DNA of 64,000 bases. Origin: Neckera pumila (Eukaryota > Streptophyta > Bryopsida > Hypnales > Neckeraceae). The translations under genes and the position numbers were made by a program. Positions 14,448 through 63,937 of this stretch are shown piece by piece. Every line of letters starts with the position of its first letter. Position 1 is the first letter of the stretch. The DNA is taken from positions 16,977,711-17,041,710 of the forward strand of contig OZ018413.1 of NCBI GenBank assembly GCA_963969595.1, written 5' to 3'. The notes below the pieces were generated by a model, which saw only the letters and a list, made by a program, of their open reading frames with translations, was not told the origin of the DNA and did not search any database.

Positions 14448-16203
14448 CCTTGTCACTTCCTTGGTTCATCATTAGATTGGGCCTAAATTCAACGAGGGGC
14501 TACTAAATACTCCATAGTATGTATGGGTAGGGCTACACTAGTTTTTGCCTACTAGTGAATGAGGAATTAGCCTCACTAGAAAAATTAGGGTCACTGCAAA
14601 AAAATTATTTTTGTGGAAATTGGTATAACATATGTAACATTTCAATCTGCACTAATTGAAAATTAGTGTGACCTTATTAAACTAGTGTCACTATAACGAC
14701 AAATCAATTGTAGTGTGTGGTTTCATATCATTGTTAACCAAGCCGGGAGGGCTTTTGATACTATAGAAAGCCAGAAGCCTCCCAACACGGAAAGTTCTAG
14801 AAAAATCTGTTATAGATTCCACCACTAGCTCCATCAACTTCAACGCGCATCCAACATTGAAAGTTCCCAAAAAAACCTATTGTAGATTCCACCATGGCTC
14901 TGGCAACTCCGGTGCCCAACATTGATAGCACTTTCTTGACTTTGTCGTGTGCTTGGATATGGGCCACCTCACCAAACATGTCTCAGTGCTAACAACCCAG
15001 CAAGGAATTATCCTTAACCCCTAAAGGATTGAGGCCCTTTTTCTGCCAAAAAATACTCAAAACTGCCATTTCTATAGCAAAAAGTAAAAAAAATTGAAAA
15101 ATCTTTTTTCTTCACATCTAACCGTAGGATCTTTCACCTAACTAGTATGAGAGTGTGTGGAAATAATATCAGAATTTTTGACCACACAAATTGCAAGATA
15201 TCTACGTTTAAAGTGAAAAAAAACAAGTTTTTCAACATAGTGCAGGACTAGATTTTTGGACTTTGAACATTTTTGATTTAAATTTTTGCACTACAAGGTT
15301 TTGAGCTTTAAATCTTTGTAGTAAATAATTGAGTTGAGAGTCTAGGAGAAAAAAATGAAAATTCAAAAAAACTTAATTATCATTCTTTAAAAAGTTGTTA
15401 AGTAGAAGTAGATACGAGATAGAAGGAAAGTCTAAAATATTCATATATTTTAGATGGAATTAAAATGCACAAATCCCAAAGGTGAGATTGTTCTAGCAAG
15501 TAATATAAACCATGTAAAAAAAAAAAAAAAAAAATTTGAAAAATTGCATTCGGAAATGCATCCTAGAAGTTATTTTTTTCAAGAAGATGCTCTAATTGCC
15601 CGAAAAACAAGAATGTCCATAACTTTCTCATAACAAATCCAAATGAAATGAATCAAAGCTTTCCAAATAGACAAAAATATAATCTATGAGAAAATATATA
15701 TAAAAAAAATTCAAATTTTTGTCCATTTTTTTTTGCTGCCTAGGCTGCCTGCCGTCCCCTATTTTGGTCTTATTTGGTCATAACTTTTTTTCCCGGGTAC
15801 TGATTGTAAAATAAATTATATTCACACAAAGCTTATTAGTTTTTCTATCTTCAAAAAAAGTTTCAAAAATCACAGCAAAATTTCAGCCCGTAGGTACCTG
15901 CCCAAAAGCGCATTTGTCCCCCAAATGGACAACAGTCCTTTAGGGGTTAATTCAGCCAATTTCATATGTGCAATTATAATTAGATTCCCTCTAGATATCT
16001 AATTTGGGATTATACCTGTAACTAGGGGAATAGATTCAGGTGGTTAACAATATTATATTGAATAAAGGGTCATTTATAAAGATCCATTAGGAAGTCAAGT
16101 GACTTGGCCACCGCTTTTTGTTGTCACTTACTTTTCATTTTTACATGTTCATGAATCAAGCTACCTTATAGAAGTATCTCTCAATTCTATTTTGCGTAGC
16201 ATG
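14448..16203 (+). repeat. Direct duplication, copy 2 (split by a TTAA element)
   Basis: Matches copy 1 block for block: the TGGGCCTAAAT start, GGGCTACACT, TTAGCCTCACTAGAAAAA, the degraded 140-bp units, GTGGTTAACAAT and CATTAGGAAGTCAAGTGACT. Removing the 929-bp element plus one TTAA leaves about 820 bp; the shortfall against copy 1 is fewer 140-bp units. Confidence 0.8.
15018..15946 (+). mobile_element. TTAA transposon, 920-bp family, copy A
   Basis: 929 bp between TTAA at 15014-15017 and 15947-15950. Ends CCCCTAAAGGATT and AGTCCTTTAGGGG form an inverted repeat (12 of 13). It carries the subterminal box TAACCGTAGGATC about 100 bp from the left end and GTAGGTACCTGCCC about 45 bp from the right end. 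No open frame of note, so non-autonomous. Confidence 0.93.
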
Positions 16204-17911
16204 GGCAAGGAAGTGTGGTAATATTTCACACAATAGAATATTTTTTGAAAAGTCATTTTTATAGATTCTTGCAAGGTATTTTCATAGGATCACTATCATA
16301 GCCTTGCTTGTGACTTGGCCAAATTCTGCACTATGAAGTTTAGCTTACTTCTCTTATACAATTGCTAAAAATCCAATTTATTAAATTAGGTTTCTAATAA
16401 CATCCATTTATTTATTGCTAAGTATGTGTTTACGGCACTTGAGTATAATTTTGAGGGGGGGCTAGTATATAATGTGTGTAGGATTACATTGATTTATCCT
16501 AATTACATTGACACCAGTTTATCAAAGTGATACTATGTATAAAATAATTGAATTATTGTAGGTTGAAATATACTACTCTGAGTAATTTCTTATAACATTA
16601 AATTTTGTAGTGACACCCTTTTGTTATGTGACACTAATCCTCTCCCCTAGTCACTAATAGAACAAATCAACGTTAGTAGTGACGAGCTTAGAATGAGTTT
16701 CATTTAGAATTGGTACTACTAAATAGTGTGGATAGGGCTAGTGGTAAAAGCTTAGAGTGAGATCAACTTAAAGGTAGGATTAAATTGGATACACCCCAAA
16801 TAATACCCTGTCTAAAACCACCATCATTACTCTATATACATCTCTAAAATCAATGAAATATATACTTATGCTAAAGAAATGATTCCAAAACTTCTACCAA
16901 AAAAAAGTTTGACCTTCAGTAACTTTTGCATACCATATCCAAATGTCGCGTTCTTGAGTGCCTTGAAACCAAGAAAATATGAAAATTTACCAATCTAATA
17001 ATAGTAATAATAATAATTAGGCACAATAGCAAAAATCGTCGGTTTAGGGGATACATACCCACCTTAGAGTAGTAAATAGTGTAGGTAGGGAGTATTGTAG
17101 AGGGTTAATTTATTAGGTCATATAAAGTAGTTCGCTTGAAAAGCGATCATGGCACAAAGGTACATTTTTCTTTCTTCAATGTATGAGCAATGTACATTTC
17201 AAAAGGTGGTTGCTCTCAGTGACCACTGTGTTTCAATTTCAAAAATTCATAACTAATTCCAGAATGGTCCAAACAACATGAAACGACTTGGGTTTGACGC
17301 CAAGTCCATTTTTCTTCCTACAAAAATTTATTGAAAATTGTTTCCAAGGACTGTTTAGCTTCCCCCCAAAACGCAGCAATCAGCTCTAAAATGGTCGCCC
17401 TAAGAGCAGCGGCTAATAAGTTTCCTTACTGTCCAAGTGATGTTGAATTCTTCAGTCCAGACCAGGGCTCTGACTGGCTCCCCAGCCCCCCTGGCTTCAA
17501 TGCCCTTAATAAATATAGTGTGGTTTGAATCCCTTTGGATTGGTACAGTACAGTACTCTTGATGGTATTCTGCCAATTGTTGTATGGAACTATGGATTGG
17601 GCCACTCACTACTTAAGTACAGTACTGTACATTCATCTAGCGCTCTGTCAAATCAGCCAGTCAGGGATTTTATATTCAATTTTCCAAGGTAATGTAAATA
17701 GTGTAGCTAAATAGTGTAGGCATATCCATGATGGACCCTCTTCTCAAATACGTCCCTATCTACATCTGTCCTATGTTTGAGGAACTGAAATGTAGAATGT
17801 AGGGGGTAATTGGGAAGTCAATCCATGATGGATTTGCATATTTCTTTTTTATTCATATGTATAGAAAGAGACTTGTAGGCCAAACAGTGTTTATTCATCC
17901 ATATTGTGGCA
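16204..17911. other. AT-rich intergenic DNA, no gene seen
   Basis: Contains degraded pieces related to the 13.3-16.2 kb duplication (for example around 16450-16760). A small plus-strand frame at 17331-17528 has no recognisable features. Confidence 0.5.
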
Positions 17912-22935: not shown

Positions 22936-25245
22936 AAGCTAGGTCAAGCAAAGGGTTCCAGAAACCCTTTTAGGAAGATTGAACCTTTATATATATAGAG
23001 AGAGAAATCCTTTTAAACTCATTAGTTTTGTAATTGGAACAAGATTAATTCCATTAGCTAAATCCTCTGCTAGACACATTTTTTTCATCTACTTAGTGTT
23101 GACTTCAAATTATAATGATCACCCTTCCTGCTATTAAATTGCTTGTATAGAAGTATAAATAGTGAAGACCTCTAATTTCAAGTTCACAAAGTCAAAGTGA
23201 CTTCAAGAACCATCTTATGCTTGTAAATAGATGACTCATTTAGTCATATATATAAATAAATAAATAACAATTGAATGAAGTACAAATTTTCAATGTCTTG
23301 TTCATAAGGATTAAAAGCAAACATGTCTATATTATGCTAAAATTTGAAATTAATCATCAATTTTCTCAAAGTTCAAAATAGGTTTCTTTTCTACAAAAGA
23401 GGATCTGTTTAGGTATTGTACTCATTAATAAAGTTGTAGTGAGATTGAAAAGGCTAGTATTAGCATTTTAATTTTACCACTAACATTACAAGCAAATATA
23501 TTTTCAGTGTACCCATATTATGCATATGGCTTTAGAATCAAGATTCCATCATCTTCTTCATTTGCTTGTACTATGCATTCATAAATCCTTGAAGGACGCC
23601 ACGGCCGTTTTCCGACTGATGATTGACTTTGAAACAATTTGCAGAACAAAAAAGAATTGTTTTTCATGCAATTTTTTCAATTGCCGCATGGAATTTATAG
23701 AGTGTCCACCATCTCTAACATGGTGATAAAGTAGCAAAGTGCATGCTTTATTTTCATCTTTTCTCCTCTCTACTATGACTATTTGAAGTACAGATATTCA
23801 TTCCCTCAAAATCTGCCTGATGTCTTTATTTGGTCCCCCTTGTTCAAATATGTTGTCAACTGCATGTATTAGCTATTAAATTAGATAAAGTACTTGAAAA
23901 TTCTATTTCAACACTTCATGGTCATAGAGAAGCAATGATCACGGTGACTAGCCCATCTTTTAAGTGTTAATATTGTGCTTATTTTCTAACAATAATCCCT
24001 AACCATCTGAAAGAAGAATATTTTGGTTTAGTATTGTGATAGTTTTATTTTTATGCCTGCACAATGGCTTTCAATGTGAACACTTGTAAATTTTCACAAT
24101 AATAGGTATAATTGAGATTTGATGTATTATGTCTTCAAAACCCTAACCCAAATTTCTCCATAGTGGCATAGTTGCATAATTATATATTTTTGTGGTCATA
24201 GGTCCCTTACTACCAAAGATTGAGACAAGTGGATGCAAGTCTTCAATTTTTCCTTTTTTTGTAAGATTCTATATTTACTATTCTAATTTGTCCTCCTTTT
24301 TGTTTTTCATTTTTTTCCCAAGTTTTCCTAATTTTTTTTTCTTTGTCCCATTTTTCCTTCCTTTCTTCATCCATTCTTTTCATCCATTTCCATTTTTTAT
24401 TCATCTACTTTCATCAATTTTTTAGATGTTTTCATCCAATTTTTCATATACTTTCATCCTCTTCCATTTTTTATTCATCTACTTTCATCAATTTTTCAGA
24501 TATTTTCATCCATTTTTATATATTTTCATCCTCTTCCACTTTTTTTTCATCCAAAAATTTCATCCTATTGATTATCTATTTTCATCAATATTTTCATCTA
24601 CTTTCATCTATTTTTGAGTTTTTCCATCCACTTTTTTATTTACATTCATCCATGTTTTCATCCTCCACTCTTTTTTCCATCCAAAATTTTCATCTAGTTC
24701 TTAATATACTTTAATCTATATTTTAATCCAAATTTTTGTCTATTTTTATCCTTATTTTCTTTCCATTTTCATTAAACTTTTCATTATTCCGTCCAAAATC
24801 TATGCTCCCCGCTCACCAATCCCCGCTCCCCACTCGCCGCTCGCCGCTCTAAGCTCATGTGCTAGCAACGCTCCAACTTTTTCAATTCAAAAAATGACCC
24901 TTCAAATAACTATTTGAATAAAAAAATCAAATAAAAAATCTTCAAAAATTACTATAATTAGAATTCAATATTTTGATCTTACAAGAAAAAAATCTTTTAG
25001 AAATCGTAAATATTTAATCTACAATTGATTTTAGAAGGAATTTCCAATTTCTGGCTTCAAATTTTATTGAAAAATATTGGTATGTATTTTTGTTGATCTA
25101 ACCTTATGGATGTGATCTATAATTAGCATTTTATAACTATTGTTTGAAAGTCATCATTAAAATATTCTTTGAAATTGCATTTTATAATATATCTTCACAA
25201 TTTTGGAAATTTGGACACCCTTCCGGTCCTTCCTTTAGGGATTAA

Positions 25246-26176
25246 CCCCTAAACTTCTAAGTTCTATGAATATGGTTTCATCGAAAATGCTCAAAAACTG
25301 CCATTTTTAGTACAAATACCAAATTTTTGAAAAAAAAAATTTTGACTCATGTAACCGTAGGATCTGGTAGTATGCTGACTTGAGAAAATGTGGTATAGAT
25401 TTCAAAAATTTCCACCACGTGGATTGCAAGATATCAGCATTCAATTCACTGAAATTATTTTCTTGGCCCTGAGAAAAACAAGGCAGCTGCACTTCACAAG
25501 CTCACTTTTCTATGAAAAAATGTCTAAAATGGTGGTGCTTCTTTGGATTCTTTATCCTAGACAAGTTGGCCACATGCTTGAAAATTTTCTCATCATTTGA
25601 AATTGTACAACATATAGGAAAAAAAATAGTAAGTAGATAATAGTAGAGAATGATTCAAAATACTAAATTGTTTAGAGTTTAATTAAGGAAAATTAAAAAT
25701 TGCCAATCCAAATGGTTGCAATGTTGCAATAAACAATCTACATCCTATGATTTTAGTTTTTTTCAAAAAATATTGAAAATTGAGTAAGATAAAGGTCTTC
25801 AAAGTTTATTTAGAGTAGAGAATTTATAACTGCCCGCAAACAAAAAAAACTCATAACTTTTGACTCATTGATCAAAATGGAATTATTCAAAGCTTTCTAT
25901 GTATATATAACTCTAGAAAATCAGTTTCACATTTTTGTTTATGAAAAAAGTGATTTTTAAAAATTTGCCTGGACTGCCCAGTTATAAAAAAAATAACATA
26001 TTAGGCCATAACTTTTGACTCATCTTTTCAAATGTCATGAAAATTAGTACATATGAAAGACATTCCTCATCCCCACCTTTGCTTAAAATTTGGGCCAAAA
26101 ATATAGAAATCTCCAGTCACACGTACTTGCCCAAAATTACCATGTAGCCAAAAAATGCATGCTGGTCCTTTGGAGG
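25246..26176 (+). mobile_element. TTAA transposon, 920-bp family, copy B
   Basis: 931 bp between TTAA at 25242-25245 and 26177-26180. Left end CCCCTAAACTT; the right end TCCTTTGGAGG is slightly decayed. Box GTAACCGTAGGATCT lies near 25351. It shares its left TTAA with the right end of copy C, so the two are directly abutted. Confidence 0.88.
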
Positions 26177-26180
26177 TTAA

Positions 26181-27733: not shown

Positions 27734-27736
27734 TAA

Positions 27737-28085: not shown

Positions 28086-28088
28086 TAA

Positions 28089-30967: not shown

Positions 30968-31394
30968 TAATGGAGCAGGATGTGACCACATTCTAACTTC
31001 ATCTAAGTTATTGTTTAGAAAAACATGTGCTGCTGAACATTCAAATACAAAATATTTGAATCATTTAACCATATAGTACTGCACACTGTCGTACCCAGCT
31101 ATCAAGGTCAGCATTATACATAAAATAAAAATGAAGAATCTGTTGAATATTTTTGGAAATTATTTTCTGGTGGGAGATGGAAACAAATCAATTGATGATG
31201 CTGGAAATGCCTATAATGAGTCAAATGGTGAAATTCATTCAAGTTATTTGATGCCAAAAACTTAATAGTTAAATTTTTAATCAAGTATCACTTTCAAGCA
31301 CCATCAAATATCGAGATATTTTTTCTTGGTGATGTGATGGGCTTCAGTTTGTGAAGAGGGAGTCCATACAGTGAAGTTCATTGTTCTTTATTAA

Positions 31395-32313
31395 CCCCTA
31401 AAGTTTCATGACTGTGTAATCACAAAAACGCTCCAAAACTGCCATTTCTAATACAACTACCAAATTTTTGGAAAAAAATAATTTTTGACACATGTAACCG
31501 TAGGATCTTGTAGTATGATATTTTGAAAACATGCGATAAAAATTTCAGAAAATTCCACCATGTGGATCATAAGATATAAGCATTCAAAGTCTTGAAAACC
31601 ATTTTTACAATCCTGGGAAAAATCAAGCAGCTGCACTTTGCAAGCTCACTTTTCAATGAAAAAATGCTGATAAAGGTGGTGCTTCTTTGAATTCAGTTTC
31701 CTAAACAAGTTTTCTATATGCTTGAAATTTTTTATATCATTTGGAATTGTACAACATATAGGAAAAAAATAGTAAGTAGAAAGAAGTAGAAAATGATTCA
31801 AAATACTAAATTGTTAAAAATTTAATTATGGAGTTTAAAAATGCCAATCCCAATGGTTGTGATGTTGTAATAATCAATCTACATCCTATATTTTTTTTTT
31901 CCAAAAATATTGAATATTTAATTAAATAAACAACTTTAAAGTTTTTTTTAGAGTAGACAGTCCATAACTGCCCACAAACCAAAAACCCTCATAACTTTTG
32001 ACTCATTGATTGAAATGGAATGATTCTAAGCTTTTTAAGTATATATAAATGTAGATAACCAATTTTTTTTTTTAAATCCAAAAAAAATGATTTTTTCTGA
32101 TCTGCGCAAACTGCCCAGTTACAAAAAAAAGTAACATATTAGGTCACTACATTTTACTCGTATTTCGAAATGTCATGAAATTTGGTACACATGAAGATAT
32201 TCCTTGTCTCCACCTTCTATTAAAATTTCAGCCTCAAATATGGATATCTCTAGTCACATGTACTTGCCCAAAATTTCTATACGGCCAAAAAACGCATATT
32301 GGTCCTTTAGGGG
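31395..32313 (+). mobile_element. TTAA transposon, 920-bp family, copy D
   Basis: 919 bp between TTAA at 31391-31394 and 32314-32317. Ends CCCCTAAAGTTT and GGTCCTTTAGGGG. GTAACCGTAGGATCT lies near 31495, 100 bp in. One of the best preserved copies; no open frame. Confidence 0.93.
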
Positions 32314-32317
32314 TTAA

Positions 32318-35300: not shown

Positions 35301-36530
35301 AGTCTCAGCTACCTTCTGAAAATTGACATTGCTGAAATCACAGGTGAACTCCTCTGCTTCATAAGTGGAAAAATTATGTAGACGTTCCACAATTCAAGTA
35401 GACATTCCATGCTGATGTTGGAGAAGATGTTCTTTAACTCTGAAGCATGCCGACCTCCATATTTTGGATGATGAACAGAGGGCTTCAAGGCACTGTTTTG
35501 TGCAACTAACTTCTCATTCATTCAATGTAACTTCTCATTCATTCAATGTAATACTTGAATCTAGAAAAGACAACCTTCCTTAATGACCAAATTCTGGTAA
35601 ATGATATTTCTGCACAAAGATATAAGCAAAAATGCGCAAAAATTCAGAAAAGGATTGAGACGTTTAGGGGTTAAACTTGCATCAAATTCTGTTTTCAGAA
35701 TGCGATAGATTTGCTCTTCTTTACTTTCTTACAAATGGATATTGACAATAACATCATCAGACAACATGTTCACTTCACTAATGGTCCTACTGCAAATAAA
35801 AATGCACGAAAGCCTTGAGGCACTACAATAGAATGATGTTGTGTTATAATTTCTTGTTGTGGCAAGACTAGCTCAAATTATACTGTAAACACAACCGAAG
35901 AAGAAATTTTTTGCAGCTGTGCATGCACATATCAACAAGATGGACCTAATGAAACAAGCTATAGCTGCTTGGCAATGCATAATACATGTAAAATGGGTTT
36001 GCCATATGAAGTATAGGGAGGCACTGAATGTATTAAGCAAAAATCCCTCCATGAAACACGGTTTCACCAAGTCATGTATAATCATTCCTGTACTCTCTAC
36101 TTCTCCTTGTGAAGCTTGTTTTAGATCTGTAGCTATGTGAGGGTGGCTTTATTAATTGTTCCATGGTCAAGGTGTTCGCGAGTTATTTTCAGTCATCTCA
36201 ATATCAGTCAATTAGATAACTCCAATTAGAAGATTAAGTTTTGGGTAAGATATGATTTGGACAAGTATAACTAGGACTTTTATTTTAATAGACAGTTCTA
36301 GATTGAACCAATATTAGAATGCTAAAGGTAGAAAAGAAGTCCTAGTCTATCGTAAAGACTAATAGTCTACATGATAATCTTTATTATAAAAGACAGAGCT
36401 TGGAGGTGTTGAAAACTCTATTTGAAGATGAATCTCTCTCTATGGTCAATTGGTTTGAGCTCTTTGTAAAGCATTCTTGTTAATAGGTATATTTATGTGT
36501 TCTTAATTAAAGTTCATTGTAGGAAGTTTG
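32318..36530. other. 4.2 kb of gene-free intergenic DNA
   Basis: No frame shows family features. A dispersed block with TATGTCCGATAACC and GGTTATCTAATAC at 33300-33360 also occurs in the ASHH2 intron (8660-8740) and, decayed, at 34125-34190. A right end CGTTTAGGGG-TTAA of a TTAA element stands alone at 35661-35674, after about 60 bp related to the 231-bp family. Confidence 0.5.
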
Positions 36531-42508: not shown

Positions 42509-42512
42509 TTAA

Positions 42513-43998
42513 CCCCTAAAGGACCAGATTTTCGAAATTGTGAAGATCTATTATAAAATGCAACTTAGAAAAATATTTTAATAATGACTCTCAAACAATA
42601 GTTGTAAAATGCTATTTATAGATCACATCCATACGATTAAATCAACAAAAATACATACCAATATTTTTCAATAAAATTTGAAGCCAGAAATTGGAAATTC
42701 CTTCTAAAATCAATTATAGATTGAATATTTATGATTTTTAACCCCTAAAGGTCGAAGACTATGTTTTCACCAAAAATACTCCAAAATTGCCATTTTTGGT
42801 ATAAGTATCAAATTTTAGAAAAAAAACATTTTTGGACACATGTAACCATAGGGATCTTGTAGTAAACTTGTTTGAGAGTATATAGAAAAATTTCAGAATT
42901 TTCCACCATGTAGATTGCAAGATATTAGCATTTGAATTGACAAAAACACTTTTTTTGGCCCTGCAAAAAATCGGGCAACTGCACTTCACAAGGTCAAATT
43001 TAAATGAAAAATGTCCAAAATGGTGGTTACTCTTTGGATTCATTCTTCAAAGCAAGTTGGCTACATGCTTAAAAAATTTCAGATCATTTGAAATTGTACA
43101 ACATATAGGAAAAAAATATGTTGTAGAAAGAAGTAGAGAATGATTCAAAACACAAAATTGTTAAGAATTTAATTTTGGAATTGCAAAACGTCAATCCCAA
43201 CGGTTGTAATGTTGCAATAAACAATATGCATCCTATGCTTTTATTTTTTTCAAAAAATATTGCAAATTGAGTTAAATAAAGGACTTCAAAGTTTATTTTA
43301 GAGTAAGGAATCCATACCTGCCAGCAAACTAGAACACCTCATAATTTTCATCTCATAAATCAAATTGGAATAATTCAAAGCTTTGCACGTATATATAAAT
43401 CTGAAGAACCAATTTCAAATTTTTAATTTCTTAAAAAGTGACTTTTCAGAATTTTTTTGAGCTGCCCGCCGACCATTGAAAATGACATATCATCCAATAA
43501 CTTTTTAATCATGTAGTCAAAAGTTTTGAAAATTGTTGGGCCTTAAAGCTATTCCTCGAGCACATGTTTTGTGAAATTTACAAAGAATAAAAATAAAATT
43601 TCCATTTGTAGTAAGCTGCCCAAAATCGCTATGTTGCCAAAAAATGCCATTTGGTCCTTTAGGGGTTAAAAGATTTTTTTTTTCTATCAGTTCAAAATAT
43701 TGAGTTCTAATTGTAGTGATTTTTGAAGATTTTTATTTGATTTTTTTATTCATGTCATTTTCAAAGGGTCATTTTTTGAACTGAAAAAGTTACTTTTTGA
43801 GGCTAGACCTCTTGATACCTTTTGAATTATAGAATATTTGCAGAGCAAAATCTTCATAGTCAAAAACGTACAAATGTTAAAGAACTAATATAAGAATCTT
43901 CAAACAAAATTGATGGATGAAAAAATGCATTTTGGTGAGTTTAGGATGTGTTTCTGATCATTTATTGTTCAAAATCTGCACTCATGGTCCTTTAGGGG
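42513..43998 (+). mobile_element. TTAA transposon, 570-bp family, copy E (carrying F)
   Basis: TTAA at 42509-42512 and 43999-44002, ends CCCCTAAAGGACC and GGTCCTTTAGGGG, a perfect 13-bp inverted repeat. Without the nested element F and one TTAA it is 558 bp. The interior is the reference for copies C and G. No coding frame. Confidence 0.92.
42742..43665 (+). mobile_element. TTAA transposon, 920-bp family, copy F, nested in E
   Basis: 924 bp between TTAA at 42738-42741 and 43666-43669. Ends CCCCTAAAGGTC and GGTCCTTTAGGGG. The box reads GTAACCATAGGGATCT near 42841. The homologous position in copy C (CTAA near 25010) is uninterrupted, so the insertion boundaries are exact. Confidence 0.93.
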
Positions 43999-44002
43999 TT
44001 AA

Positions 44003-44860: not shown

Positions 44861-44945
44861 ATTACCCCACAAGGACTAAGGAGTAGTCCAAATTTTCAAA
44901 ATTGTGAAGATGTATTACATAATGCAACTTAGAATAATGATTTAG

Positions 44946-46490
44946 CCCTTGAAGTCTCATTGTTCCTTCGAGGGACAAAATGGGATATGGGTAGGCTCCT
45001 GTAGTCTCAATATTCATCATGATTTTTTGAAACTTTTTTGTAAAGATAGAAAAATACATTAGGTTTCAAGGAAATATAATTATTATTTCAACCGGTGCCT
45101 AAAAATAAAAATTATAGGCATTTTGTGCCATAACCTCCCCATATTAAAAAAATTAAACTAAAAACATTCTCATAGATTATAATTTTACCGGCATGGGAAA
45201 CTTTGATTCATTTCATTTGGATTTGTTATATGAAAGCTATGGACAATCTTAAAGCATCTTCTTGAAAAAACAAGTGAAAAATAAACTTGTAGGATTCATA
45301 TTTGAATTCAATTTTCACAATTTTCACAATTAAAAATTAAAAATTAAAAATTTCACAAGGATAAGATCTCTTGCTAGTACAATCTCACCATTGAGATTAG
45401 TGTGTTCCTATTCCATCTTAGAGCTATTAACAACTTAGATCTTCCTTCAATTTTGAACCTACTTCTACATAATTATTTTTAATGAATGAGAATTAATTAT
45501 TTTTAAAATTAAAAAATCCTAGATTATCAACTCAATTTTTCAACATAAAAAATTAGAAATTCAAAATCAGCAGTGCAAAAATTTAGCCAATTAACCCCTA
45601 AATGCTCGAGGCACCAAATTTTGGTGTTGACAATATTTTGAAGTTAAATAAAAACCTAACCAAGTTGCTATTTTTAGAATTTTTTTATTTTGAAAAATTC
45701 TTAAGTTTTTGAAGTCTAGTTATAGAGTCAAAAATCCGATTTTGAAAATGATTGATTATGATTTTTCTATTCAAGATTTTGTGCAAGGGTGTCCACTGCA
45801 ATCCTGGCTTTCCGTTAGTATTGAAGATTCTTGGAAATGAGCTTCAAATACACTAGATCTTGGAGAAAAAATCACCCTAGAAATTCATTTAAAAAAATTA
45901 TAGTGTAGATTTTGAGAAGCTGTAAATTGATAGGCATTATACACGGTAGGTCCTTTAACCTCATATTTTTTTGGTGACCAACTTTATAGATTTGGCATGT
46001 GAAAAGAGGGTTGAAAGACTTCCAGTCATTTTCCGCAGTTTTAACACCTTCATGTTCAAACATTATAATCTTTCAATTCATAAGTGATATTGTTGTGTTT
46101 TCTTATCCTATATGATCTCTAACATGTTTAGATTGAATTTGTACGGTTACAATCCAAAAAAATGATATCAAGTTTTTGTCTTTTTGTTCAGTTTAGAACA
46201 AACTCCTAGAAGCTCAAAAAAGGCCTTGGGCATTTAGGAATTAAGCCATGATTCAAAGCCAAAAATCTTGTCAAGCAAGGTGGAAAAAAAGAGTTCTTTG
46301 GTCACTTTCAATGCAAATATATTGCAATTTATGGGGTCAAAGTTTTTGACATGTCTTCCACACATACATGTATTAGCTAGAGTAAGACCCTACGGTTAGA
46401 TATGCAAAAAAACAAGTTTTAAATTTTTTTGCACTTTACAATAGAAATGGTAGTTTTCATAGATAGAATAAGGTCTTGGAACTTTACGGG
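44946..46490 (-). mobile_element. TTAA transposon, 920-bp family, copy H, nested in G
   Basis: Flanked by TTAG (44942-44945) and TTAA (46491-46494). Ends CCCTTGAAGTC and GACTTTACGGG-like. The reverse of the box GTAAC-CGTAGGGTC lies near 46386. Length 1545 bp including element I, 895 bp without it. Confidence 0.85.
45595..46240 (+). mobile_element. TTAA transposon, 650-bp family, copy I, nested in H
   Basis: 646 bp between TTAA at 45591-45594 and 46241-46244. Termini CCCCTAAATGCTCGAGGC and its inverse GCCTTGGGCATTTAGGAA are paired over about 18 bp. The interior is unlike the other families. Copies J and L keep an undisturbed TTAA at this position (47630-47633, 215-218). Confidence 0.85.
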
Positions 46491-46967
46491 TTAATAAAGA
46501 GTTTTAAACAAAAATTATAAAACATGATTTATAGATCATATCCAAAAAATTGCCTCTACTATTGCACTAACCATAATTATTAATTAAATTCAAAGCAAAA
46601 AGTTCAAAATTCAAAATTTATTTTAGTTTTGGTATTTTGTAATTTGTACATGAATATTTTTATCTGAGTTCAAAATTTTTAGCTTTAATTATGGTGATTT
46701 TTTTATTTTACTTATTCATTGAAGTCATTTTTGAAGAGTCATTTTTTGAATTGGAAAAGTTACTTTTGAGGTGAAACATACTAGTATACTTTGAATAATA
46801 GAATATCTACAAAATAAAGTCTTCAAAATCTATACAATAAAAACATTATTTCATATCTATTACAAGAATCTAAAAATGAAATTGAAATAGATGAAAAATC
46901 ACAATTTGGTGTGCTTGATATGTGTTTGCATTCACTCATTGTTTGAACTTGAATATCTAGACATTAA

Positions 46968-47887
46968 TCCCTAAAGGATCATTGTCGGTTCGGCAGACAT
47001 TTGGGATTTTGGGCAGGTACCTACTAGTTGAAATTTTGTCATGATTTTTTGAAATTTTTTGAAGATAGAAAAAGTGATAAGTTTTGTGGGAATATAATTT
47101 TTTTCACAATTGGTGCCCAGGGAAAAAAGTTATGACCAAATAAGCTCAAAACAGGGGACGGTTGGCAACAAAAAAAAAGGACAAAAATTTGAATATTTTT
47201 TTTAATATTTTTTTTTCTCATATATTATATTTTTATCTATTTGGAAAGTTTTGATTCATTTCATTTGGATTTGTTATGAGAAAGTTATGGACATTCTTGT
47301 TTTTTGGGCAGTTAGAGCATTTTTTTGAAAAAAATAACTTCTAGGATGCATTTCTGAATGCAATTTTTCAAATTTTTCAGATTTTTTTTTCCTTGGTTTA
47401 TATTACTTGATAGAACAATCTCACCATTGGGATTAGTGAATTTTAATTTCATATAAAATATATGAATATTTTAGATTTTCCTTCTATCTTGTAACTACTT
47501 CTACTTAACAATTTTTTAAAGAACAATAATTAAGTTTATTTTTATTTTTATTTTTTTTCCTAGACTCTCAATTCAATTCTCCACTACAAAGATTTAAAGC
47601 TTAAAACCCTGTAGTGCAAAAATTTTAAGTTAAAAATGTTCAAAGTCAGAAAATCTAGTCCCGCAATGTGTTGAAAATTTTGTTTTTTACAATTTAAATG
47701 CAGATATCTTGCAATCTGTGCAGTCAAAAATTCTGAAATTTTTTCCACACACTTCCAAACTAGTTAGGTGTAAGATATTACGATTAGATGTGAAAAAAAA
47801 ACATTTTTCAATTTTTTTAACTTTTTGCTATAGAAATGGCAGTTTTGAGTGTTTTTTAGCAGAAAAAGGGCCTCAATATTTTAGGGG
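46968..47887 (-). mobile_element. TTAA transposon, 920-bp family, copy J
   Basis: 920 bp between TTAA at 46964-46967 and 47888-47891, reversed relative to copy A. Starts TCCCTAAAGGATC, then GGGCAGGTACCTAC. Ends in AGGGCCTCAATATTTTAGGGG. Confidence 0.9.
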
Positions 47888-47891
47888 TTAA

Positions 47892-48155
47892 GGAGTCAAG
47901 CCTTAAGAGCATCTCCAATTAGTGGTTGAAGGTCATTGCGTTAAAACATCAAGTTAATTTTTAAGAGAATGTACATCTGCCTTCTCCCTGACAAAATGGT
48001 GTGGAATATTCCACACCATATTTAGCTAAAGAACATCTGTCAACTAACAATGACACCACATGACAGCATTGATGAGTTTTCGTGGATGCGGCCTCAAGGA
48101 GGGAAAGGCAACCTCTCTGAAGGCTAATGAATGTTATGTGTTCAAAGATATTAAC
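47892..48155. other. Short spacer, possible MITE end
   Basis: Begins with TTAAGAGCATCTCCAA at 47904, the start common to GAGCATC-type MITEs, but no matching right end was found before copy K. Confidence 0.35.
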
Positions 48156-49076
48156 CTCTGAAGTCCCAAGGCCATTTTTCTGTCAAAAACCACTCAAAAT
48201 TGCCATTTTGGCTGCGTTCACCCAAGAACACCAAAAGAAATATTTTTTTAGAATCTAACCGTAGGATCTTCTACTTCACTTGTCAAAGATCATGTGGTAA
48301 AATTTTCATGAAGTTTGATCGTATAGATTGGAAGATATTAGCATTCAAAGTTGAAAAAGAAAAAAATTGTGAACACTAACTTGCAATTTCAGATGACTTT
48401 GACCGCCATTTGTGGAAATATTTTGCACTATAGACTTTGATTTAAAAAAAATTTATGCTGAAGATGTAAGTTGAAATTCTACAAAAAAAAATTCAAAAGA
48501 AACACACTTGATTTTCATTCTTTAAAAAATTGTTAAGTAGAAGTAGGTCCAAGATTGAAAAAAAAACTAAATCATTAATAGCTCTTAGATGGGATTGCAA
48601 TACAATAATCCTAATGGTGAGATTGTTTTATCAAGCAAATACAACATTTTAAGAAAAAAAATTAAAAAATTGTGAAAATTGCATTCAGAAATGAATCCTA
48701 TAAGTTATTTTGTCAAAAAGATGCTTAGATTGCCCAAAAAACAAGATTGTCCATAACTTGCTCATTATTAGTCCAAATAAAATGAATCAAAGCTTCACAT
48801 GTAGACAAAAATATAAAATTTCATAGGAAAAAAAAACTAAAATTTATTTTGACTTTTTGCAAAAAAATTTGTGTTGCCCGCCAAGTTCAGTTTGAGGCTT
48901 TTTGTGGTATAACTTTTTTTCCTGGGCACCAATTGAAATAAAAATTATATTCCCATGAAGCTAATCAGTTTTTCTACATTATGGGAAATTTTCAAAAAAA
49001 TTCACTAAAAAATGAGCTCGTAGGTATCTGCTTGAAGTCTGATTTGTCTCCCAAGGGGACAATGAGACTTTAGGGG
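48156..49076 (+). mobile_element. TTAA transposon, 920-bp family, copy K
   Basis: 921 bp between TTAA at 48152-48155 and 49077-49080. Ends CCTCTGAAGTCCCAAGG and GAGACTTTAGGGG. TAACCGTAGGATCTT lies near 48258, 100 bp in. Confidence 0.9.
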
Positions 49077-49080
49077 TTAA

Positions 49081-50183: not shown

Positions 50184-50187
50184 TTAA

Positions 50188-50614
50188 CCCCTAAGTGGTT
50201 TCCAGGACACATTGTGTCCTCTGGATTCATATACGACCTCTATTCGCCAAATTCCACAAAGTATTGACCAAAAATGTAAACTACAAAATCGAAGGTGCAA
50301 TAGTCATTGATTTTCATATGTTTTTAGAAAAATATTGCAATGCTTGTTGTTGAAATAAGATGTTGTCGAACACGCAAAAGTGTGTATTTCTAGAGAAATA
50401 CGTGTACAAGAGATATAACTTCACAATATTTACAAAATTAGTAACATGTCCGATGTAACTAGAAAGTGTGTAGTTTGATAGAAGACTGCAATGCGCATTC
50501 AATAAAAAATAAATAAAAATTAAATGGATAGTAAACCATTCACATGCAAGGCTCTGTACATTGCACTTACCGTATGTACATATGCATTGAAAGACACCCC
50601 AAACCACTTAGGGG
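50188..50614. mobile_element. TTAA transposon, 427-bp family, copy M
   Basis: Between TTAA at 50184-50187 and 50615-50618. The ends CCCCTAAGTGGTTT and AAACCACTTAGGGG are a perfect 14-bp inverted repeat. The terminus diverges from the CCCCTAAAGG families after base seven, and the interior is unrelated. Confidence 0.92.
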
Positions 50615-50648
50615 TTAACACCAAGTGCAAACATAACTAAAGTTGTAA

Positions 50649-51147
50649 GACCATCTGCAATGCAATCACGGTACATGGCCCAGTATTGGTATAGCTAAAT
50701 TTTGAATGCTAAACAATTAGAATTTGAAAATTGTCTTATTAGAAGCGCATCAGAAAGAACATGGAGAAGGAACAAAAAAAAATTCAAACTAGACATTGGA
50801 CAAGTACTTCAAAAGCGAGGTACAAATCTGAAGTTATAGAGGTCTTAGCAAATCACGGTTACCAAAGCAACATTTGGCCATTGACCTTCTACATTTGATG
50901 ATTTTTAGAGGGTCAATGACCAAATGTTGCTTTGGTAACCGTGATTTGCTAAGACCTCTATAACTTCAGATTTGTACCTTGCTTTTGAAGTACTTGTCCA
51001 ATGTCTAGTTTGAATTTTTTTTGTTCCTTCTCCATGTTCTTTCCGTTGCGCTTCCAAGAAGACAATTTTCAAATTCTAATTGTCTAACATTCAAAAGTTA
51101 GCTATACCGATACTGGGCCATGTACCGTGACAGCATTGCAGATGATC
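50649..51147. mobile_element. 499-bp foldback MITE with near-perfect 236-bp arms (TAA target site)
   Basis: GACCATCTGCAATGC at the left and GCATTGCAGATGATC at the right, flanked by TAA (50646-50648, 51148-51150). Almost the whole element is palindromic, with a loop of roughly 24 bases near 50888-50911. Only a few mismatches separate the arms. The transcript would form one long hairpin. TAA suggests a Harbinger-type mobiliser. Confidence 0.93.
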
Positions 51148-51150
51148 TAA

Positions 51151-52718: not shown

Positions 52719-52722
52719 TTAA

Positions 52723-53322
52723 TCCCTAAAGGACCAAGTCACGGTTCAATGCATGCAAAAAACCCTCAAGTAACCTCAAGTAATTATGCATAAAGTCAAT
52801 TTGGGTTGGATGTTTGCAAAATTTTGCCATAAGGTATAAACATGTAATACACCCTTGGTGGGAATAAAAAATTTCTCTGATTGGGTATCCGGATCAAAAA
52901 TTATGTTGCCCTAAACTTTTGGATAGCTTGGATAGTTGTGGGCAACACATGCAAAATTCCTCCAATACTTTTGAAATTTGGTAGGTTTATAACTAATATG
53001 ATGTAGGATGCAACTTTAAGAACATATCAATGCGTAGTGTAAAAATCTCACTATAGGAGAAGTTAAATTCTGCTAGTCCAATTGGACAAGGCCAGAAAGA
53101 AAGTTTTCCTTCTAAATTCAAATATTACAATTTTTCAATTTGTGGACTTAAAGGTTCTGAAATGTTTTCTTCACATTTTCATAGTAATCTAGTACAAATT
53201 TGCATGGTTGAATTTTTTATAGAGTTAAAACTTTTTTTTTTTTTTTTTTTTTTTTGTCATTGCCCTAAAGAAAGCGCCAATTCTTGACAATTTTTGTCTA
53301 AAATGTGCCTTAGTCCTTTAGG
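52723..53322 (+). mobile_element. TTAA transposon, 600-bp family, copy N
   Basis: 600 bp between TTAA at 52719-52722 and 53323-53326. Ends TCCCTAAAGGACC and AGTCCTTTAGG. Includes a poly-T run (about 53231-53255). It retains an intact TTAA at 53016-53019, exactly where its relative O is interrupted. Confidence 0.88.
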
Positions 53323-53725
53323 TTAAGAGGGGTGCACATAGAAAGATTCACAAAACTGAATCTATAAAACTAAAAAATGAGGGTTTTCAAGAATTTCTTT
53401 TTCAAGAACTATATAACTATGGAACATTAGTCCAAAGCAAATGGAATTTAGCAAGAGTTGGTTGCCATTATTACTTGAAAATTTAAGAAAACACACTCTG
53501 GTTCCTTTTTCTAAGCGAATAGATGTGAATTAAGAGACAGATCATTCTTCACCTAATAGGTCCAAGGGAAGTACATTTGATCAAAAATATGTTGAATGTC
53601 CTAGAGAAGTCTAGACTCTTGCATAGAATGTCCAAGAGAAGTTAGAATTTATTTTGAATATGCTTGTAATTAGCACTTTAAAAATTCATTGTTTTTACCT
53701 ATAATGTACAAAATGCACATATTAA

Positions 53726-55222
53726 CCCCTAAAGGATTGAGGCACATTTTGGGCAAGAATTGTCAAAAACTATCATTTTTTAGGGCAGTGAGAAAAAAAT
53801 GAAAAAAAAAAGTTTAAAAAAAATTCAGATGGTCAAATTTATACTAGCCTATATAGAAATTTGTTGAAAAAATTTAAGAAACTTTGAGCACACAAACAAA
53901 ATTTAAAGATTAATTATAATGCTTGAAGTTAGAAGAAAAAGTTTTTTTTTCTAACCTTACTCGACAAAGTTAACAAACCTTAATAATTCTTGAAGTGAGA
54001 TTTTTGCACTACAGATGGATTTTTTAACCGCTAAAGGCCTAAGACCTTTTTTCTGCCAAAAAACACCCAAAACTGCCATTTGTTTTAGCAAAGAGTGAAA
54101 AAAAATTAAAACGTGTTTTTTTTGCACATCTAACTGTAGGATCTTACATCCAACTAGTATGAGAATGTGAGGAAAAAATTTCAGAATTTTTGACTGCACA
54201 GATTGCAAGATATCTACGTTTAAAGTGAAAAAAACAAATTTTTCAGCACATTGTGGGATTGGATTTTCTGACTTTGAACATTTTTAACTTAAAATTTTTA
54301 CACTTCAGAGTTTTGAGCTTTAAATGTTTATAGTGGAAAATTGAGATGACAATCTACCCAAAAAAAAAATTCAAAAAAAATTAATTTTCATTTATTGAAA
54401 AAATTGTTAAGTAGAAGTAGGTACGAGATAGAAGGAAAATCTAAAATATTCATATATTTTAGATGGAATTAAAATGCACTAATTCTAATGGTCAGATTGT
54501 TCTAGCAAGTAAACTTAACTATGCAAGAAAAAGAAATTTGAAAAATTTGAAAAATTGCATTCAGAAATGAATCCTACAAGTTATTTTTTTCAAAAAGATG
54601 CTCTAACTGCCCGAAAAACAAGAATGTCCATAGCTTTCTCATAACAAATCCAAATGAAATGGATCAAAGCTTTTTAGATAGACAAAAATATAATCTATGA
54701 GAAAAAAATACTAGAAAAAAAAAAAGGCGCAAATTTTTTTTACTACCCGCCATCCCCTGTTTTGAGCTTATTTGGTCATAAATTTTATTTCCGGGCACCG
54801 ATTGTGAAAAAAATTATATTCCCATGAAGCTAATCAGATTTTCTACCTCCAAAAAAGTTTCAAAAAATTAGGAGAAAATTTCAGCCCGTAGGTACCTACC
54901 CAAAAATGCATTTGTCCCCTGAAGGGACAACGGGCTTTTAGGGGTTAAGGCAGTTGTATCCTATATCATATTAGTTATATACCTACCAAATTTTAAAAGT
55001 AGAGGACAAGTTTTGCACATGTTGCTCGAAGCTACCTAAGCTGCCTGAAAAGTTCAGGTTAGTATAACTTTTGATCCAGGCACCCAATTGGACAGAAACT
55101 AATATTCCTGTTTAGGGATATGTGTTTACACCTTGTATCAAAATTTTGTGAACATTTGACCAGAATATACTTTGTGAGCACCCCCCCTGAGATTTCTTGC
55201 GTACGCTTAATCCTTTTAGAGG
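53726..55222 (-). mobile_element. TTAA transposon, 600-bp family, copy O (carrying P)
   Basis: TTAA at 53722-53725; the right end CCTTTTAGAGG is followed by ATAA (55223-55226). Outside the insert it matches copy N in reverse complement: GGCACATTTTGGGCAAGAAT, TCATATTAGTTATA and TGATCCAGGCACCCAATTGG-like blocks. Without P it is about 576 bp. Confidence 0.85.
54028..54944 (+). mobile_element. TTAA transposon, 920-bp family, copy P, nested in O
   Basis: 917 bp between TTAA at 54024-54027 and 54945-54948. Ends CCGCTAAAGGCC and GGGCTTTTAGGGG. TAACTGTAGGATCTT lies 100 bp in and GTAGGTACCTACCC about 50 bp from the right. Confidence 0.92.
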
Positions 55223-55268
55223 ATAATTTGATTACCTTTACCCAGATTTGTAACCTTGCCTGGAGAGA

Positions 55269-59568: not shown

Positions 59569-61215
59569 TCCAACAATTCAACACAACACAGCTACGTACT
59601 TACACACAATTTCCACCACGACAGTACTTTCTTGCAAAAACACAAAGAAATTTGCGCTTCCTCGTACGTCAACGTACAAACACTCGAAACAAAAAGGTGA
59701 TCCTCCCTCTCAAACGAACAAAATTCTTTTCTGGACCCCACGGGCGGCAGATCAATCAAGAATCACGACAAAAAGTCCTCTACAACCAAATTCTCTTCAC
59801 CAAACTAGAGAAATTCCACCAAATTCTTCTCCAACTTCAAAATTATCACACCACAATCAACACCAACACGCCACCACCTTCTTCAGCGCTGGCTAACTTC
59901 CACTAGAAAACACCTTCAGAATCCAAAATTCTGGCCTAAAGTCGCACTGGCCCACTCAAGCTTACGCAACACTCCACTCCTCGAGAGAATTTTCCAAGTC
60001 TACCATGAAATTCCCGGTCCAGCTACTGATCGAGCAGAGCTCATTGTGGCAAATGGCGAAAGAGGGGAAGGGCAATATAGGCTCCCCACAGGGACGGGGT
60101 AAGAAGCTAACGCGCTGACAGCAGCGACCGGGTCTACCGACCTAGCTGGGAAGTAGGTACCTGCCAACCAACCTCCAGGGAGGTACCTACCTACGAAGCT
60201 AAGGAGTAGCCAGCCTGTCATAGGATCTTTTGATAACACGTTTCCACTGACATGGAGCCACTCATTTCTTTGACGTCTTTAGGGCCTCTTTGTCAGCTTT
60301 TGGGTATTTTTACTCCTTTTATTTATTTATTTATTTATTTATTTATTCTCTTTTCTCTTCTTTTTTTCTTTTTCTTTTTTTTGGGGAATTGATGCTCTAA
60401 TTTATGCCGTTGCAAATACAGACGTTGGTACAACAGTACTTGACACTGATTTGCTTACAGAATTTCCTTCCTTAGGCTTATTGTTCTCGTGGGAGCTTGT
60501 TCCAGTCGGAGACAGGTTGTTGGGATTAGTGATTGGGAAACGTAAAAGGCGGGGGTTCCAAGAACACTAATCAGTCTGCATAATTATTTTTTACAGACAG
60601 TTGCCAGACATGATCAGGAATTTTCTAAATTCAGGTACGCTTAATAAAGGTTCAGTTAAGTACGAATAATAATGTGGATTACTTCGATTGATTTACAGAA
60701 TACAGACAGTGCAGGGATGAGGATGACAAATTTGATCAAACTGAATGATGGAGGATCTTGATACTCACTATAGAGTTCTTCCAATTTTGTAGATTTCATT
60801 AGAGGTAATCATATAGCGTGTTTAGGATACCATATAATGAGGGACCAGGAGTCGGAGTTTGAGAAAAATAGAGGACAAAATTTTTTGAAGCACCAAAACT
60901 AGGTGTGACTCAAATTTGACTGCGTATAGGCACAGTCACCAGTCCTTGCTACTCGTATTGGCAACCAAATTAGCTGGAATAAGGAGGGCCCCTTCCATTT
61001 GTTTATTTGTTGAGCCTTTTTTTTGTCTCTTTCTTTTTTGTTTTTTAGTTAGTTATCTCTTCATTGCCCAGCCTCCTAGCATAGCCGTTTTAAACTTATT
61101 GAAGGAAAAAGGAAAATTCATTAACCTCATCAAGTCAATGCTTGCATTCTCTAGCTACAAAAGAGGATGGGCATAGCATGCTAACCACTTGAATCCTGAA
61201 CCCCCATCTTGAGGT
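59569..61215. other. Upstream region of the EXORDIUM-like gene and intergenic DNA
   Basis: The first 400 bp are GC-richer and probably hold leader and promoter. An ATTT microsatellite lies at about 60318-60350. An imperfect inverted repeat, AAGTAGGTACCTGCC / GGGAGGTACCTACC, lies at 60150-60195. No second gene is supported. Confidence 0.45.
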
Positions 61216-61219
61216 ATAA

Positions 61220-62128
61220 TCCCTAAAGAACCAACGTGCGTTTTTTGTCCGTATAGAATTTTTGGGCAGGTACATACAACTAGAGATTTCCATATTTTTG
61301 GCTGAAATTTTAATAGAAGGTGGGGGCAAGGAATATCTTTCATATGCACCAAATTTCATGACATTTGGAAATACGAGTCAAAAGTTATGGCCTAATATGT
61401 TACTTTTTTTCATAACTGGGCAGTCCGGGCAGATAAGAAAAGATCACTTTTTTTGAAAACAAAAATTTGAAATTGGTTTTCTAGAGTTATATATAGGTAA
61501 AAAGCTTAAAATCATCCCATTGTGATCAATGAGTCAAAAGTTATGAAGATTTTAAGTTTGCGGGCAGTTATAGATTCTCTACTCTAAAATAAACTTTGAA
61601 GTCCTTTATCTTACTCAATTTTCAATATTTTTTGAAAAAAATAAAATCCTAGGATGTAGATTCTTTATTACACAACATTTCCACCATTGGAATTAGCATT
61701 CTTCAATACTATAATTAAATTCTTGACAATTTTGTATATTAAATCATTCTCTACTACTATCTAGTTGCTAATTTTTTCCTATATGTTGTACAATTCCAAA
61801 TGAAGTGAAAATTTTCAAGCATGTAGCCAATTTGTCTAGGAAAAAGAATCCAAAGAAGCACCATCACTTTGGAAATTTTTTCATTGAAAAGTGAGCTTGT
61901 GAAGTGCTGCTGCCCTGTTTTCTGCAGGGCCAAAAAAATGGTTTCAGTGAATTTGAATGCATATATCTTGCAATCCATGCGATGGAAATTCCTGAAATTT
62001 TTATCATATGTTCTCAAGTCACCATACTACAAGATCCTACAGTTACATGTGTAAAAAAAAAGGTACTTCTACTAAAAATGGCAGTTTTTGAGCGTTTCGG
62101 TGAGAACATAATCATGGAACTTTAGGGG
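61220..62128 (-). mobile_element. TTAA transposon, 920-bp family, copy Q
   Basis: 909 bp, reversed relative to copy D, flanked by ATAA (61216-61219) and TTAG (62129-62132), both one base from TTAA. Ends TCCCTAAAGAACC and GAACTTTAGGGG. The box appears as AGATCCTACAGTTACATG near 62031. Confidence 0.88.
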
Positions 62129-62132
62129 TTAG

Positions 62133-63702
62133 TTCACTCGTAGATACCTTGGGAGAGAGCTCAGTTATAATCACATAGATGTGACTGGTCGCATTGACAT
62201 CAATTGTTTCATAAATTTAATTGCACATATGAGCTAGCCCATCCCCCACCACTCAAAGTCAAAAGCATGGCAGACTATTATAATTAATGGTAAGATGTAA
62301 GAATGGCAGTTTCGATATTGAGGGTTCTTGCATTGGGGGGGAGCAAACAAGACCCCTCTAACGTTGGTTAACAATGTTATGGAATTTGGTGTTGTATTTC
62401 TTTTGTACTATTCTTAGTTAAACCTTCCTCTAACACCCCTAGTACAAATTTGGGAGAACTTTGCGATTAATTCTATTGTAGTAAAAAATCTATAGAATAT
62501 TTGGAAATCTATGGCACATTTGTTCTTTTTTCTTAGCTTCAATGTAATTGTTGGTCTTGTAAGATTGAGCATTAATACATCTTTAATGGGACTTTCTATA
62601 ATTACACTTCAATATACGGTTTCATCCACACTTCCCATTTTTTAGCAGATCCAAGCTCATTTACTATATATGTCAAGTAAATTTATAGCTAATGGTCTAA
62701 TTACAATTCATAAAACGTCTTATTTAGAATGTTGGACATAAATCCATTATATGCATAATCATGTAAAAGAATCCAACTAAGTATAGTATTAGAAAGTGAT
62801 TTGAAAGGTTGATACAATGAAAAATAGAAAGTACTTGTTTTTATATTAAGCAATCATTCTTTTCTAGATGAAACACAACTAAAATTTAACAAATATCTTT
62901 ATCTAGCTACAATCTTTCTAAAGCAATATAGGCAAAATAGAATTGCTTAAATAATTTCATAACAATTTTGATAAAAATTGTTAAAAATACGAGATAGTAT
63001 CATATAACTTCACTAGAATTATTTACTATAAATAAACTTTTGGAGCAACCATATAAAAAATAAAATATCAATAAAAAATGACTAGATTTGGGTCAAGCCT
63101 AGCTCTCTTTGTTGTCCAACAATCTCTAGCATATTCTCAAAAACTACCATATGCCTTGGCTATTTTATTTAGAAGAGAGAAGCAATTAGAGTATCGTTAA
63201 AAAGTAAATTTGGTTGTTTTTTGTACAGCAATTGGGAGGCATGACATCCATCATTTAACTCCCACAAGATACTCACATGTCATTTGATGACATGGGCCAA
63301 AATTTTCATAGATGTTTTAACCCTCATAGATATGGTGGAGACCATGTATTCAAATTTGTATTTTATTCTTAGAATACAAATTATATACTATAATATGGCA
63401 AAAAATGTATTATTGGATTGAAAATTCAACAACTAACATCTTTCATTTAGGGGTCATTTTAATTTCTAAACCTTGCCATGTTCAAATATTGCATTGAACA
63501 TATAGAATAAGTATGTGGTTATTTTGCAATTTTCAAACATTTAGAAGGTGCAATAATTATCTAAAATTAGAAGTGTTGATGTCATTGGATTTGGCTCATC
63601 ATGAATATAAACTTTTATTAGTGTTGTATACATCAATTTATGCATCTTGTGTATCTAATACAAAAATGTAATGTTGCAATCCAAATTGGGCTTCTCAAAC
63701 CT
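62133..63702. other. AT-rich intergenic DNA, no gene seen
   Basis: No open frame of note and no boundary that I could support. Confidence 0.5.
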
Positions 63703-63706
63703 TTAA

Positions 63707-63937
63707 TCCTTTAGCACCTAAATCATTTTTTGAATTTTTACATGTTTTTGCTTACCTCTTTATAAATATACATTATTTACCTCAATTTCATCAAATTCAT
63801 CATACAAAATTTGTGGTTTCTAAAAAGTCAAGCATTGATTTGGATGAATGAAATGTTTTGTGGTAAAAAAATAACTATTTAGAACCTTTCTATTCATTGT
63901 TAAAAAATAGAATGCTGGAGCGCTAAGGGATCAAGGG
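63707..63937 (+). mobile_element. TTAA transposon, 231-bp family, copy R1
   Basis: 231 bp between TTAA at 63703-63706 and 63938-63941. Ends TCCTTTAGCACC and GCGCTAAGGGATCAAGGG are weakly inverted. Related copies lie at 38935-39143 and, as a fragment, 35600-35670. Confidence 0.65.

Follow-up and report, generated by a model that had tools for sequence, protein, structure and literature searches.

Members of the piggyBac superfamily, most familiar from insects, have termini that begin with CCY, and with CCC in piggyBac itself, which comes from an insect and is a widely used gene-delivery tool. Animals, such as Xenopus, carry miniature inverted-repeat transposable elements (MITEs) derived from piggyBac. 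In the excerpted text of PMC8151067, piggyBac is 2,475 bp long, has a transposase of 594 aa with catalytic residues 268, 346 and 447, integrates at TTAA, duplicates these four bases and leaves no footprint. Here we analysed a stretch of 64,000 nucleotides (the window) from the moss Neckera pumila, at C6:16977711-17041710 in a genome of 339,505,838 bases and 18 contigs. The repeats of the window are almost certainly piggyBac-superfamily elements of a land plant, in miniature and non-autonomous form, and were presumably mobilised by transposases encoded elsewhere. We read them as piggyBac because of their termini, the single TTAA at empty sites, the near-obligate TTAA, the transposase elements with like ends, the catalytic residues and the near-identical copies.

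Small elements in the window

The elements have the layout TTAA-CCCC...GGGG-TTAA. The exact 12-mer TTAACCCCTAAA was found 15 times in the window, compared with 0.01 copies expected from 100 shuffles. Elements were delimited by self-comparison and profile searches (nhmmer), and were called complete when both ends were present, mutated tips being allowed. Fourteen were complete (A1-A5, B1-B4, C1, D1, E, G1 and G2; Table 1), some of them with mutated tips, in length classes of 435, 566, ~600, 654 and ~930 bp. This number agrees with the original prediction, which had announced at least 14 elements bounded by TTAA on both sides. From its five length classes (near 231, 427, 570-600, 650 and 920 bp) four were recovered, but no element of ~231 bp was found; what had been taken for this class is most likely C1 to the left of the B3 insertion that splits it (42509-42741).

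Elements and fragments add up to 12,663 of the 64,000 bases (19.8%), and to 63% of positions 42509-55227. The dominance over intergenic DNA that had been expected thus holds locally, but not across the window. The expected range, 15018..63937, was too narrow on the left, where a fragment lies at 111-445, while the candidate last member on the right, near 63317-63941, matched poorly at its ends and was left uncounted. Among the 24 seed ends in the window, themselves chosen as near matches to CCCCTAAAGG, 20 started with CCC or CCT, three with TCC and one with CCG. Pieces of another repeat, with ends like degenerate TTAA-CC tips (judged partly by eye), were seen at 35620-35674, 38988-39143 and 63702-63850.

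No transposase was found in six-frame Pfam scans, read through stops, of positions 13000-60599 (1-12999 and 60600-64000 lay outside the scan), in agreement with the copies having been called non-autonomous. The Phi_1 domain was recovered in these scans and served as a built-in positive control. Matches to DUF4998, DUF1836 and zf_C2HC_14 (E 0.24, 0.24 and 0.028, respectively) were below the cut-off and were taken as chance.

Families A and B were alignable along their full ~930 bp (nhmmer), yet very divergent, with identities of 69-88% among A1-A4 and of 73-84% among the B copies. G holds A positions 7-289 and 709-861, and because it carries parts of both A ends we regard it as an A-like internal-deletion derivative. 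These matches contradict, in part, the proposal that the interiors are unrelated. Ten further 10-kb stretches of the genome, picked for holding exact ends, were used for comparison, and relatives of A, B and E were present there again. Twice among these stretches we found an A deletion form of 585-586 bp (A 1-213 or 1-210 plus 560-931), apparently a separate dwarf family. In the window and the ten stretches together, 21 of the 23 full-length A and B copies span 913-943 bp, the others measuring 781 and 970 bp. Each reading frame of A1-A4 and B1-B4 has 12-30 stops, and therefore the constancy of the ~930-bp length is not due to coding. Two other collections, viral_contigs and genome_contigs, were searched with a 22-mer from the interior of family A, and each had 0 matches.

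Target site

The nested insertions in the window (B3 within C1, A3 within G2, and E within A5 within C3) provide natural empty sites in paralogs. When flanks were joined with one TTAA counted, those of B3 in C1 aligned to C2, where the site is TTAG, those of A5 in C3 aligned to C1, where it is TTAA, and those of A3 in G2 aligned to G1 (TTAA), with 3-base gaps on each side. Three paralogous empty sites thus count TTAA once, and in two of these the site is still TTAA. TTAA is the duplicated target and lies outside the element, as had been proposed. For E in A5 the site can be placed only to within a few bases, and it was left out of the count. A tandem duplication at 13319-16203 holds a ~140-bp repeat array, and one of its copies is interrupted by A1. 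The A1 site aligned to the tandem duplicate free of gaps, but the duplicate has CCAG.

TTAA is a palindrome, and its duplication therefore looks the same at an empty site as that of TA within TTAA. Genome-wide, 18,843 exact TTAACCCCTAAAGG ends were counted, with 2 for a reversed-pattern control, and 729 ends with another first base (VTAACCCCTAAAGG), the outermost T being kept in 18,843 of 19,572 (96.3%). For the second TTAA position (pattern TVAACCCCTAAAGG), conservation was taken from a local profile of 67 homology-anchored ends from the window and the ten stretches; four more ends without a recognisable core were excluded. TTAA was intact at 57 of these 67 ends, with T, T, A and A kept in 63, 64, 65 and 65, in a profile that is biased towards TTAA by the choice of the ten stretches for exact ends.

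Exact end-to-end junctions (CCTTTAGGGGTTAACCCCTAAAGG) numbered 11 genome-wide, against a rough expectation of 41-82. This expectation takes 18,843 ends and a genome total of ~2.15 million TTAA, the latter scaled up from the 406 of the window. Elements may thus avoid inserting at exact ends that are already present, or such insertions may be lost. At L041:1890, L042:1856, L044:2722 and window position 25242 (B1), elements lie directly at another element's terminal TTAA, with the TTAA shared and the ends inexact. Most terminal repeats include CCCTAAA, the common plant telomere heptamer, a likeness that is probably coincidence.

Transposase-bearing elements elsewhere in the genome

The original prediction had suggested a search of the full genome for such termini together with a DDD transposase. 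A search with PF13843 (DDE_Tnp_1_7) gave 872 first-look candidates, of which 116 matches were scored, all above the cut-off (best E 4.6e-80), so that the genome has at least 116 copies. The 14 control genomes had none (0/14). From these copies we read eight stretches of 8.9-10 kb each. Both ends were assigned in six of them, delimiting elements of 5.4-7.3 kb with the transposase inside (Table 1), and all assigned ends start with CCC. At least four autonomous end types were distinguished: CCCCTAAAGGACCA, CCCCTAAAGTCCCA, CCCCTTGRGGACT and CCCTTAAACGCCCA/CCCCTAAGCGCTCA. The TTAACCCCTAAAGGACCA terminus of one transposase-bearing element is also that of C1, and the TTAACCCCTAAAGTCCCA terminus of two others (L039, L040) is close to that of A4, which bears out the predicted piggyBac type.

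PF13843 was the sole Pfam match of the transposases of L039, L042 and L046, whose stop-to-stop frames measure 844-999 aa. All three matched the piggyBac (6x67) and piggyBat (9c0f) proteins, with E 2e-23 to 3e-35. The aspartates aligned to 6x67 positions 268, 346, 447 and 450 were kept in 20 of the 20 copies read. TTAA duplication, CCY termini, PF13843 between such termini (elsewhere in the genome) and the piggyBac residues D268, D346 and D447 were thus all found.

Probable descent and proposed mobilisation of the small elements

The small elements are MITEs in that they are short, lack a transposase frame and have ends in common with an autonomous element. A4 is 74% identical to L046 at positions 1-195 and 87% in the terminal 38 bp of the other end; to L040 it is 71.5% identical over positions 1-284, and 86.8% over its 3' 38 bp. 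B matches autonomous elements along its 5' 200 bp and at the tip. A1 and L039/L046 each have, at one end, the palindrome TTGTCC-N7-GGACAA after the 18 terminal bases. Because both ends match autonomous ones, the 930-bp elements look like internal-deletion derivatives, and for A and B the source looks like a relative of L039/L046. L046 and C1 are alike in all 18 terminal bases at both ends, TTAA included. D1 and L042 have in common a palindrome near GAGGACACAATGTGTCCTC and are 79% identical over 38 bp; D1 was perhaps derived from an element of this kind.

In the mechanism that we propose, the main small families would arise through internal deletion of longer elements encoding a DDD piggyBac transposase. 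Transposase from copies elsewhere in the genome would then act in trans on the small elements, recognising the terminal CCCCTAA... repeats and cutting the element out, presumably with seamless excision. The element would enter a TTAA, and these four bases would be duplicated. Which autonomous family is paired with which small family that it moves is something we infer.

Age and activity

Between L041 and L042 the identity is 98.9%, and their match ends at the element, save for 8 bases on the left, where both elements adjoin another element's tip; the two are therefore separate insertions. Further transposase groups were 97.6-99.1% identical across the stretches compared. Recent movement appears likely. 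The ratio of nonsynonymous to synonymous substitution rates (dN/dS) was 0.074 for L024/L028 (dN 0.064, dS 0.86) and 0.073 for L019/L031, with dS saturated; pairs involving L020, L021, L023, L027, L034 and L036 were left out. Such ratios point to a transposase under purifying selection between lineages.

Alternative explanations

Several observations weigh against the assignment of the window repeats to piggyBac elements mobilised from elsewhere. Similarity to the autonomous copies that were examined is limited essentially to the 18-bp termini in C1, to the tips in E and to short stretches in D1, and neither C1 nor D1 had a match in the ten other 10-kb stretches. Both ends were not found in two of the eight transposase stretches (L043 and L045, 8.9-10 kb), L044 has ends that agree at just 11 of 14 positions, and the cysteine-rich C-terminal tail of L042 aligns to that of piggyBat at noise level only. 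Internal stops interrupt 81 of the 116 PF13843 matches, leaving 35 without; L024 and L028 carry one stop each, and among the youngest pairs dN/dS ranges over 0.36-1.06 but is based on too few changes to judge. No transposition event was observed.

Kolobok and Sola3 elements duplicate TTAA too, and the duplication by itself does not distinguish these superfamilies from piggyBac. Yet elements with like termini encode a PF13843 transposase that matches the solved piggyBac and piggyBat proteins, and this refutes Kolobok and Sola3 for the CCCCTAAAGG/GT-ended elements, unless the transposase elements are passengers. What lies between such termini is PF13843 and not a Kolobok transposase, in a search that had no Kolobok profile. 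Taken together, we regard a Kolobok or Sola3 origin as very improbable. Hardly any weight can be given either to elements that duplicate TA or three bases (Tc1/mariner, PIF/Harbinger) and merely prefer TTAA. At empty sites alone a TA duplication within TTAA would look the same, and in B4 both altered flank bases are the outermost ones. The genome-wide retention of the outermost T speaks against such elements, as the 729 deviating ends are the maximum of NTAN that the first base allows. In addition, the four TTAA bases decay about equally in the 67 ends, unlike a 3-base TWA duplication of PIF/Harbinger, and the linked transposase is piggyBac.

That one autonomous family mobilises all small families of the window, as the original prediction had it, is unlikely, and the claim of a single transposase is probably wrong. 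A tip close to CCCCTAA is indeed common to all families, but no fewer than four types of autonomous end exist side by side, and while A and B match L039/L046, D1 is closer to L042, resembling the CCCCTTGRGGACT type rather than CCCCTAAAGGACCA, though weakly. The mobilisation is probably divided among several autonomous families. We give slightly less credence still to the idea that most of the transposase copies are defunct remnants or have been domesticated as genes of the host, the small elements having spread long ago from a lost source. The divergence of 12-31% between window copies within families and the many interrupted transposase matches would fit it; the uninterrupted matches argue against it, as do full-length copies that are flanked by TTAA on both sides and nearly identical to each other.

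Beyond the assignment of the window repeats to piggyBac, it may be, although we would stop short of calling it probable, that piggyBac ranks among the major DNA-transposon superfamilies of this genome and was mobile recently. Several autonomous families would move alongside one another and would have given rise to tens of thousands of dwarfs. The dominant dwarf lineage would keep a length near 930 bp although its subfamilies are very divergent, as though its movement depended on length or internal sequence, and elements would seem to avoid insertion at each other's end TTAA.

Other features of the window and the genome

An open frame of 580 aa contains a 45-bp minisatellite with ~8 copies (2217-2744); a fragment of a SETD2-like methyltransferase (~35 residues, E 2e-5) lies nearby. 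A Phi_1/EXORDIUM gene was found at 58531-59568. Genome-wide there were 120 DYW_deaminase matches, which, like the Phi_1/EXORDIUM gene, indicate a land-plant host. Towards the ends of contigs there are clusters formed by a number of PPR genes of the DYW type whose open frames are long (for instance at C8:23.76-23.88 Mb, C9:23.70-23.74 Mb and C5:28.38-28.45 Mb).

Table 1 Small elements and fragments, with the transposase-bearing elements used for comparison. Positions refer to the window unless a stretch is named.
Feature	Position	Length	Strand	Description
A1	15014..15950	937 bp incl. both TTAA	+	non-autonomous; inverted ends agree in 17/18 bases incl. TTAA
A2	46964..47891	928 bp	-	87.6% identical to A1
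A3	54024..54948	925 bp	+	within G2, at a TTAA seen once in paralog G1
A4	48151..49080	930 bp	+	ends match autonomous L040
A5	44942..46494		-	A-type; split by E, itself within C3; one TTAA copy now TTAG
B1	25242..26180	939 bp	+	begins at C2 terminal TTAA
B2	31391..32317	927 bp	+
B3	42738..43669	932 bp	+	nested within C1
B4	61216..62132	~917 bp	-	flanking TTAA now CTAA and ATAA (read inwards)
C1	42509..44002	566 bp	+	interrupted by B3; TTAACCCCTAAAGGACCA at both ends, like autonomous L046
C2	24862..25245		-	partial; 5' part of C element; uninterrupted paralog of B3 site
C3	44862..46963		+	partial; degenerate C element, interrupted by A5; outer limits approximate
C4	17914..18131		-	partial; C fragment
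D1	50184..50618	435 bp	+	inverted ends perfect, TTAACCCCTAAGTGGTTT; subterminal palindrome resembling that of autonomous L042
E	45591..46244	654 bp	+	within A5; tip CCCCTAAATGC
G1	52719..53327	609 bp	-	A-like internal-deletion derivative
G2	53722..55227	~581 bp plus nested A3	+	degenerate right tip
Fragment with A 5' end	111..445		-	partial
Orphan end TTAACCCCTAAACG	35661..35674		-	partner not found within 3 kb upstream
A deletion form	L010:8477-9062 and L016:7560-8144	585-586 bp
L039		5,634 bp		ends TTAACCCCTAAAGTCCCA; transposase inside
L040		5,631 bp		ends TTAACCCCTAAAGTCCCA; transposase inside
L041		5,371 bp		ends TTAACCCCTTGRGGACT; transposase inside
L042		5,371 bp		ends TTAACCCCTTGRGGACT; transposase inside
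L044		6,827 bp		transposase inside
L046		7,300 bp		TTAACCCCTAAAGGACCA at both ends; transposase inside

Comparison with known systems

The elements are of a known kind, piggyBac, and their interest lies in the land-plant host and the scale; prior publication is possible. We know of no description of a piggyBac expansion this large in a land plant, although our literature search cannot establish absence. The dwarf copies could account for several percent of the genome, roughly ~30 Mb, on the assumption that the share of exact ends is equal in the window (8 exact 14-base ends per 12.7 kb of element) and genome-wide (18,843). A native, apparently recent piggyBac of a land plant would supply plant-adapted transposases and a host for studying silencing. 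Annotation pipelines restricted to the superfamilies that are customary in plants could miss such elements.

In the excerpted part of PMC6890710, a repeat table of the fern Ceratopteris richardii has a 'PiggyBac' row with 1,230 hits and 122,417 bp, and the label is therefore not absent from plants. This row amounts to ~100 bp per hit and 0.00% of the assembly, and the passage gives neither termini nor a transposase (PMC6890710). In the portion seen of a moss paper (PMC10619864) the word is piggybacking, not the transposon; the sampled text of PMC8969392 has none of the sought terms, and that of PMC4455052 lists superfamilies with TTAA absent.

The autonomous elements resemble piggyBac (IFP2) of Trichoplusia ni in the TTAA target and its duplication, in termini that start with CCC and in a DDD transposase, the catalytic domain of which aligns to 6x67 with E 9e-26 to 3e-35. 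They differ in size, with 5.4-7.3 kb and frames of 844-999 aa here versus the 2,475 bp and 594 aa given for piggyBac (PMC8151067, in part). Their subterminal feature is the TTGTCC...GGACAA palindrome at one end, whereas piggyBac has 19-bp repeats. For the L042 transposase the best solved match is piggyBat (PDB 9c0f, E 2.4e-30), from a bat. With the piggyBac MITEs of animals the small elements share the short, non-coding form, the TTAA and the termini common to autonomous copies; unlike them, they live in a land plant, keep a size of ~930 bp over deep divergence and reach a very high copy number.

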